Shown: in pieces, positions 40,048 to 41,346 of the stretch
Numbering within the stretch: position 1 is the stretch's first letter
How the letters are laid out: every line of letters starts with the position of its first letter
Assembly (NCBI GenBank): GCA_905233215.1
Contig: CAJODC010000005.1
Span: forward strand, 1 to 45,310
DNA length: 45,310 nt
DNA from: an uncultured Synergistales bacterium
GTDB lineage: Bacteria; Synergistota; Synergistia; Synergistales; Aminobacteriaceae
Direction of reading: 5' to 3'
The notes under the pieces: model-generated
Seen by the model: only the letters and a program-made list of their open reading frames with translations
Told to the model about the DNA's origin: nothing
Databases searched by the model: none
Made by a program: the position numbers and the translations under genes

Positions 40048-41304
40048 TTACGCTTCCTGTTTTTCTTCTTCCTTCTTTTTCAGAAGCCCGGACTTTTCCC
40101 ACTCTTTGATTTTCTCTTCTGGGAACGGGACTGCTGCTTCAACGTTAGTGGCCTTGTTCTTGCCGTTTGCCGTAGTTTTTTGGACGAACTTAACGGCTTG
40201 GCCTTCCGCTGAGGGTGAGACTTCGAGAAACACAGCGAGTATCGGATCGATTACGTCATCGTAGTCGAAACGGAAAAGTTTATTTCCCTTCATGCGTATC
40301 TCGCCGTGAGGGATAGGATCGTAACGGCGGTAGTAGTCAATCTCGCCTTCGTCCTTCTCAACGTTCACAGGAGCTTCTGTCGGTGCTTCCGGCGATACTT
40401 CCGCTGTGGCTTCTGCCGGTGCTGTTGACGGTGACTCTGGTGATGATTTTGTGTCTTCCGGCTTGGCCTCTTCAGTCGGAACGATGCTCACGCCGAGAGG
40501 GAGAATGTCTCCGATCTTCACGTGATTGGCGGTACGGACATCATCGGCTGCTATGCCCTTCTGATTCTGCATCAATCGGAACGTAACCTCAATGTCGGGA
40601 GTTTCAGGTTTTTCGTCCAAGAGCTTTTTACGCAGTACCTTATCAGTAATTTGATTCAAATGGACAAAAACTTTCTCGCCGTCACGCAAAGGAACTCCAG
40701 CTTTCAATACTTCTGCTGACTTTATGAAGCCCCATCGGCGGTGGTCATAATAGAACTCTGTGAGAATCCCGGTAAACTCACGGTCAGGGAGATTGATTTC
40801 AGGGACTTTCGGTGCTTCTGGCTTCTTTTCCTCTTTTTTCGTTTCTTCCTTGACAGGCTGTGTCTCTTTGACAGGAACTGCTGATACTTCCTCTGATTTT
40901 GATTTTTGCTCAGGCTGTTCACCCTTCGGAGGAACTGAAACAGGTTCGGGAACTTTTACTGCTTCCGATTTCTTTTCCTCTTCCTTTTTCGGCTCCTCTT
41001 TGACTGGCTGCGTAACCTGTTGAGTTACTGAGACCGGCTCGGTTACTTCTTTCGGCTCTTCAGTACTCACGGCTTCGGCAGTCTGCTTGACCGTTTTTGG
41101 TGTTACGGGTTCGGCACGTTTAGGTAATTGTCCGTGTGCAATCCTCAAGCCCAAAATCGCCTTATAGGACCATATTTCGTCTCCGTCAATCGTAACAAAA
41201 TCATCATCGCACGATGTTAAAACGCCTGATGTGTAAGGCATGTTGGGAGTCAGGAATATTTCAACCTGCTCTCCTGTTAGATTTCCGAAAACTTCTCGCT
41301 TCAA
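40048..41304 (-). CDS. Putative RNA-binding protein: Sm-like domain plus two cold-shock-like domains
   Basis: A 418-residue protein with three folded parts in a charged, disordered frame. Residues 1-58 resemble an Sm/Hfq-like domain (GEQVEIFLTP, YTSGVLTSCDDDFVTIDG, then SYKAILGLRI). Residues 60-172 are a proline/lysine/glutamate-rich linker with an internal duplication (98-120 and 148-169). Residues 176-260 match a cold-shock domain (GILTEF, RRWGFIKS, KVFVHLNQI, IEVTFRLMQNQKGIAADDV). Residues 333-391 resemble a second, degenerate one (GEIRMKGNKLFRFDYDDVID ... NGKNKATNVEAA). Sm and cold-shock folds both bind single-stranded RNA, so an RNA-chaperone role is inferred. The start is TTG at 41304 with AAGGAGGAG 7 nt upstream. 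Single-gene unit, divergent from the efflux operon. Confidence 0.75.
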   Translation of the reverse strand: MKREVFGNLTGEQVEIFLTPNMPYTSGVLTSCDDDFVTIDGDEIWSYKAILGLRIAHGQLPKRAEPVTPKTVKQTAEAVSTEEPKEVTEPVSVTQQVTQPVKEEPKKEEEKKSEAVKVPEPVSVPPKGEQPEQKSKSEEVSAVPVKETQPVKEETKKEEKKPEAPKVPEINLPDREFTGILTEFYYDHRRWGFIKSAEVLKAGVPLRDGEKVFVHLNQITDKVLRKKLLDEKPETPDIEVTFRLMQNQKGIAADDVRTANHVKIGDILPLGVSIVPTEEAKPEDTKSSPESPSTAPAEATAEVSPEAPTEAPVNVEKDEGEIDYYRRYDPIPHGEIRMKGNKLFRFDYDDVIDPILAVFLEVSPSAEGQAVKFVQKTTANGKNKATNVEAAVPFPEEKIKEWEKSGLLKKKEEEKQEA

Positions 41305-41346
41305 AAATGCTCTCCTCCTTGAAAAATATTTTAATAATGCGTATGT

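Follow-up and report, generated by a model that had tools for sequence, protein, structure and literature searches.

A short protein joining an Sm/SH3-type small barrel to tandem cold-shock folds in a Synergistales bacterium, and its longer paralogue with a predicted HEPN domain

In bacteria, the Sm-like and cold-shock RNA-binding folds usually occur as separate global regulators. One open reading frame in the window analysed here (the whole stretch of 45,310 nucleotides from an uncultured Synergistales bacterium) appears to unite the two, raising the question of what such a protein is, how far it is distributed and what it may do with RNA. A preliminary description of the locus had proposed a single-chain RNA chaperone of Synergistota, perhaps replacing or assisting Hfq.

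The gene and its predicted folds

The open reading frame occupies the coordinates first given for it (40048-41304) and lies on the minus strand, being read from 41304 to 40048 into a product of 418 aa; on the plus strand of this interval, stops interrupt the matching frame. Translation starts at a TTG (41304) preceded by a clear ribosome-binding site, AAGGAGG (41314-41320). Orthologues of the 418-aa protein are present in 13 members of the genus and group together in the tree, and two close pairs show purifying selection (dN/dS 0.10 and 0.15); the frame is therefore a real gene. A pseudogene is rejected by the same dN/dS values and by the intact frames. The features of the locus are as follows:

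40048-41304, minus strand: short-form gene, encoding Sm-like barrel, linker, CSD1, linker, CSD2 and C-terminal helices (ORF reading, AlphaFold2, orthologues in 13 genus genomes)
41314-41320, minus strand: AAGGAGG, resembling a Shine-Dalgarno sequence and set 9 bases ahead of the TTG (sequence reading)
41131-41304, minus strand: predicted Sm/SH3-type small barrel, residues 1-58, alpha plus five strands (AlphaFold2; weak Pfam matches; Edc3 LSm among the Foldseek matches listed)
40795-41130, minus strand: disordered linker rich in K/E/P, residues 59-170, part of which is duplicated (pLDDT mostly <50; duplication)
40531-40779, minus strand: CSD1, residues 176-258, with RNP1 (WGFI), RNP2 (VFVH) and an inserted helix at 222-231 (Pfam CSD, AlphaFold2, CspB residues)
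40135-40353, minus strand: CSD2, a predicted second OB fold and degenerate duplicate of CSD1, residues 318-390 (AlphaFold2 topology, hhalign with CSD1, Unr Foldseek match)
40051-40125, minus strand: two conserved C-terminal helices, residues 394-418 (AlphaFold2; 57% mean pairwise identity)

AlphaFold2, supplied with a 47-row alignment, predicted three confident folds (1-55, 176-258 and 318-390) with disordered linkers between them. When the model was compared with the PDB by Foldseek, the top match was to the tandem CSDs of Unr (6y6m, 7zhr), followed by single cold-shock proteins. Model and structural matches agree with the architecture first suggested, namely an Sm-like barrel and two OB/cold-shock folds in one chain, with the N-terminal part modelled as a small barrel and residues 176-258 and 318-390 as OB folds. 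Unr/CSDE1 of animals likewise possesses tandem cold-shock folds; in contrast, the window protein has two CSDs only, carries an Sm-like barrel in front and shares 11-14% sequence identity with it. The sole match of the whole protein in Pfam and NCBIfam was a sub-threshold cold-shock hit at 208-257, and no name for the complete Sm plus twin cold-shock architecture was found in the domain and protein libraries searched.

The clear cold-shock domain of the preliminary description is borne out in CSD1. Pfam CSD (PF00313) matches 20/20 members of the module (best E 4.2e-7), the window module alone reaching E 8.1e-5, under the curated bit cut-off. The equivalents of CspB F9, F15, F17, F27 and H29 are aromatic or His in 18/18 members and that of K13 is K/R in 16/18, the F30 equivalent varies among L/I/M/F, and W8 is lost in the short forms. 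Of the CspB, Hfq and archaeal Sm reference sequences used in these comparisons, those for Hfq of B. subtilis and Sm1 of A. fulgidus were checked against PDB entries. As in bacterial CspA/CspB, a five-strand OB fold combines RNP1/RNP2 with the binding aromatics and His; unlike these proteins, CSD1 contains an extra helix inserted behind RNP2, falls short of the Pfam cut-off and is one of several domains in a chain of 418 aa. Judged by these kept residues, CSD1 likely binds single-stranded RNA, which it would most likely grip through the RNP aromatic and His side chains. Strong binding is not assured, however, because the Sm-like domain is acidic (net charge -5) and CSD1 is neutral.

The second, degenerate cold-shock-like domain proposed earlier stands as a predicted OB fold, with limits of 318-390 rather than 333-391. 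In the AlphaFold2 model its topology is identical to that of CSD1 (strand-strand-strand-helix-strand-strand), and hhalign places the two in register (P 0.0095; 2/200 column shuffles equal it). The CSD profile gave two weak CSD2 matches among 18 members. Most binding residues are lost in CSD2, whose part is probably to extend the bound strand or hold it in position. The internal duplication described in the linker is present (97-122 against 146-172), in a disordered stretch that is poorly conserved (25% pairwise identity, compared with 54-61% in the folded parts of short forms); this long flexible linker would let the parts move.

The N-terminal barrel and the question of Hfq

The Sm-like reading of the N-terminal part holds for the predicted fold and finds weak support in sequence. 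The model comprises an N-terminal helix and a five-strand bent barrel of Sm/LSm-like type (H3-7, E13-18, E25-32, E36-39, E43-46, E50-55), with pLDDT of 81-95 per block over residues 3-55. Across 29 members, the best Pfam matches were two small-barrel families, DUF6897 (19) and the RimP C-terminal SH3 (10), both weak only (best E 0.0005 to 0.004); no significant LSM match was obtained among them (1/29, E 0.0043), and the LSM profile PF01423 found nothing in the own genome. The Edc3 LSm structure 4a54 was among the 50 Foldseek matches listed for the window model, and 54-69-aa proteins of a viral protein library, one of them named Gemin6, align over approximately the length of the barrel. Since neither listing shows which part of the query was matched, both are taken as supporting only. 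'Sm/SH3-type small barrel' is used as the safe wording for this modelled domain.

Similarity to Hfq/LSm proteins extends to the alpha plus five-strand barrel and to an Sm1-like motif with an invariant Gly27; in contrast to them, the window domain is missed by the Pfam Hfq/LSM models, is acidic and has no YKH His. These features bear on the proposal that the protein is a functional replacement of Hfq, bringing small RNAs and their targets together in a bacterium that lacks Hfq. In its favour, Pfam Hfq (PF17209) matched neither the own genome nor any of 188 Synergistota in a search whose controls worked, the barrel aligns in register with Hfq, and several short forms carry Tyr-Lys at the Sm2 position. 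Nevertheless, the alignment is marginal and near chance (10/200 column shuffles reach its score), and the His of the Sm2 YKH motif is absent throughout the family alignment. Further, Hfq went undetected in all 188 Synergistota searched, whereas the tandem-CSD module was found in 30/43 genomes of the window's rumen genus and 0/145 other Synergistota; the Sm-like part occurs in 31/43 genus genomes and elsewhere as marginal partial matches only. Because the family was found in a single genus, and only 13/43 genomes of that genus have the short form, a role as Hfq substitute for the phylum is excluded, and replacement of Hfq in this bacterium is considered very improbable. The search for the same architecture in other Synergistota succeeded within one genus alone, and neither 'of Synergistota' nor 'replacing Hfq' is supported. 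The acidic barrel is probably an oligomerisation or adaptor unit instead of an Hfq-type RNA surface.

A two-branch family and its long paralogue

By sequence, the window protein groups as a short member of a family with two branches: short forms of 300-500 aa (13 genomes) and long forms of ~1,000-1,090 aa. In the tree, a branch with support 99/89 sets off the short forms, with a long-branched Bacillota relative placed among them, and 12/13 of the short forms group at 100/98; a few rows represent incomplete copies of long genes already included and bear misleading labels (HEPN, OUT), which leaves the short branch unaffected. Profile maps read SM-CSD1-CSD2 for the short form and SM-HELN-CSD1-CSD2-HELC-HEPN for the long form, with the variants SM-HELN-CSD1-CSD2-HEPN in G027 and CSD1-CSD2-HEPN in G017, in both of which the HEPN region directly follows CSD1-CSD2.

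The short and long genes are unlinked. No neighbourhood of the short form is conserved across genomes and its neighbours differ in nearly every one, ruling out a conserved operon. In one genome only (G019, L110 3964-6642), the region immediately upstream of the short form holds a probable DNA adenine methylase together with a small gene. The window protein had no match in phages and plasmids, nor the tandem module in viral contigs, and a mobile or phage origin is rejected. A known anti-phage defence system is likewise rejected, as PADLOC models matched none of the short, long and G021 forms. Among variants of the short form, that of G008 (L040 2919-5777) has an extra CSD1 (Sm-CSD1-CSD1-CSD2) and an apparent IS605-type TnpB gene adjoining it. 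In G033 (L044 4526-5173), a 215-aa protein has the same Sm-like start with TPR-like repeats replacing the CSDs, and adjoins the permease that elsewhere flanks the purL site described below.

The long paralogue of the own genome (L031 5890-9012, contig C33; about 1,040 aa) lies directly downstream of purL and consists of the Sm-like part, a helical insert, CSD1-CSD2 and a large helical C-terminus with a HEPN-like domain; Pfam, NCBIfam and PADLOC gave no name for it. The long gene starts directly after purL in the genomes whose flank was read. The gene is either present or absent at a fixed site, since G023 and G094 keep the same purL and permease neighbours without it. The long HEPN form is present in 29/43 genus genomes. 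At the purL site of G021 (L043 5914-12449), a first frame reads Sm-HELN-CSD1-CSD2-HELC with an AAA/STAND-like NTPase end, and a second, overlapping frame holds a further P-loop NTPase stretch and a HEPN domain; these frames may be two genes or reflect a frameshift.

The C-terminus of the long paralogue is predicted to be a Swt1-type HEPN domain and a putative ribonuclease. HEPN_Swt1 matches weakly in the last 160 residues of 15/18 long C-termini (best E 2.2e-4, all under the Pfam cut-off), and a genome-wide search with this profile also gave matches in G009 and G027. An Rx4H motif, R1001-D/N-x3-H1006, is invariant in the 18 long forms. A review of HEPN proteins places Rx4-6H, in which R is followed by a polar residue, where helix 3 ends (PMC3710099), and the long paralogue appears to agree in both motif and position: in its model, helix 986-1001 ends at the Arg, the His lies in the next loop and helix 1014-1037 follows, the model itself being moderate (pLDDT 68, 18 sequences). 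Profile-profile comparison aligned the long C-terminus in register with the Swt1 HEPN of other Synergistota, weakly (P 0.097). Searching the PDB by sequence with the C-terminus of the long form returned unrelated proteins only, and Foldseek with the long model returned CSDs and low-probability helical repeats, with no HEPN among the 50 matches listed.

The existence of the long protein raises the possibility that the short form is its decaying remnant, left without an effector. One genome, G020 (L116 3000-4236), would fit such decay, as the Sm and CSD parts of its short form lie in different overlapping frames, which may represent a broken gene, an assembly error or frameshifting. The low dN/dS, the intact frames in 12 genomes, the identity kept in the folded parts and the single tree branch all argue against decay, which is scarcely credible as a general account.

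Outside the genus, a Bacillota MAG (JAKPTB010000149, L142 4861-9186) encodes S1-S1, the tandem CSD module, TPR and a STAND-type NTPase in one frame, which breaks off within the NTPase, close to the end of the contig; a wider search around this relative found the full module in that one genome only. A combination of HEPN, STAND and cold-shock-like OB folds has been reported in Bacillus proteins (PMC3710099), so the general theme of HEPN/STAND with cold-shock parts is already known. The long paralogue and the Bacillota relative similarly join cold-shock parts with HEPN or STAND, but differ from the Bacillus proteins in the Sm-like N-terminus, the tandem CSD module and the domain order; unlike Swt1-type HEPN RNases in general, the window protein itself is without a HEPN domain. 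Literature searches found no description of an Sm-like start with a tandem CSD module, and, within the collection searched, no paper combining HEPN, cold shock domain and Sm-like.

Possible role of the short form

From the computed gene, folds, paralogy, conserved binding residues and HEPN motif of the paralogue, we infer RNA binding, assembly and regulation of a nuclease by the short form. The explanation favoured here, tentatively and at somewhat short of an even chance, is that the window protein belongs to an RNA-binding branch that lacks an effector, in a family restricted to the genus and with a predicted HEPN ribonuclease as its second branch. The short form would probably act on the same RNAs as its HEPN paralogue and tune the nuclease. 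Among genomes with the short form, 12/13 also carry the HEPN form, against 29/43 overall (P about 0.02, a value that ignores kinship), which lends mild support to the nuclease link. G014 (97% complete) is a real exception: it has the short form and lacks the HEPN form, which shows that a genome need not encode the nuclease to keep the short form.

The same genome fits a rival account, in which the protein acts alone as an RNA chaperone or translation regulator of the cold-shock type, with no functional tie to the HEPN paralogue, the barrel only raising avidity by oligomerising. The kept RNP residues of CSD1, the lack of linkage between short and long genes, the old and separate short branch of the tree and the resemblance of the tandem CSDs to Unr are all consistent with it. 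Against this account, the genome already encodes an ordinary stand-alone CSD protein (a 79-codon open frame), all folded parts of the short form are common to the nuclease paralogue, and nearly all carriers have both. A stand-alone chaperone is possible, if doubtful.

A bolder extension of the effector-less-branch explanation envisages a HEPN nuclease system, directed by RNA and new to the literature. Here, RNA would be recognised by the Sm-like and tandem CSD modules, which would activate the nuclease; the window protein, lacking an effector and encoded at a separate locus, would serve as its regulator or immunity factor; and the Bacillota STAND relative would employ the same sensor module in a biological-conflict switch. 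As a whole, this system is judged unlikely.

The window protein unites Sm-like and cold-shock folds in a phylum without detectable Hfq, and leads to an unnamed large protein of the purL site that carries a predicted RNase domain in about two-thirds of the rumen-genus genomes. If the sensor-plus-nuclease reading is true, the family would represent a further bacterial route to sense and cut RNA, and its effector-less sibling would offer a natural means of testing how such a nuclease is regulated.
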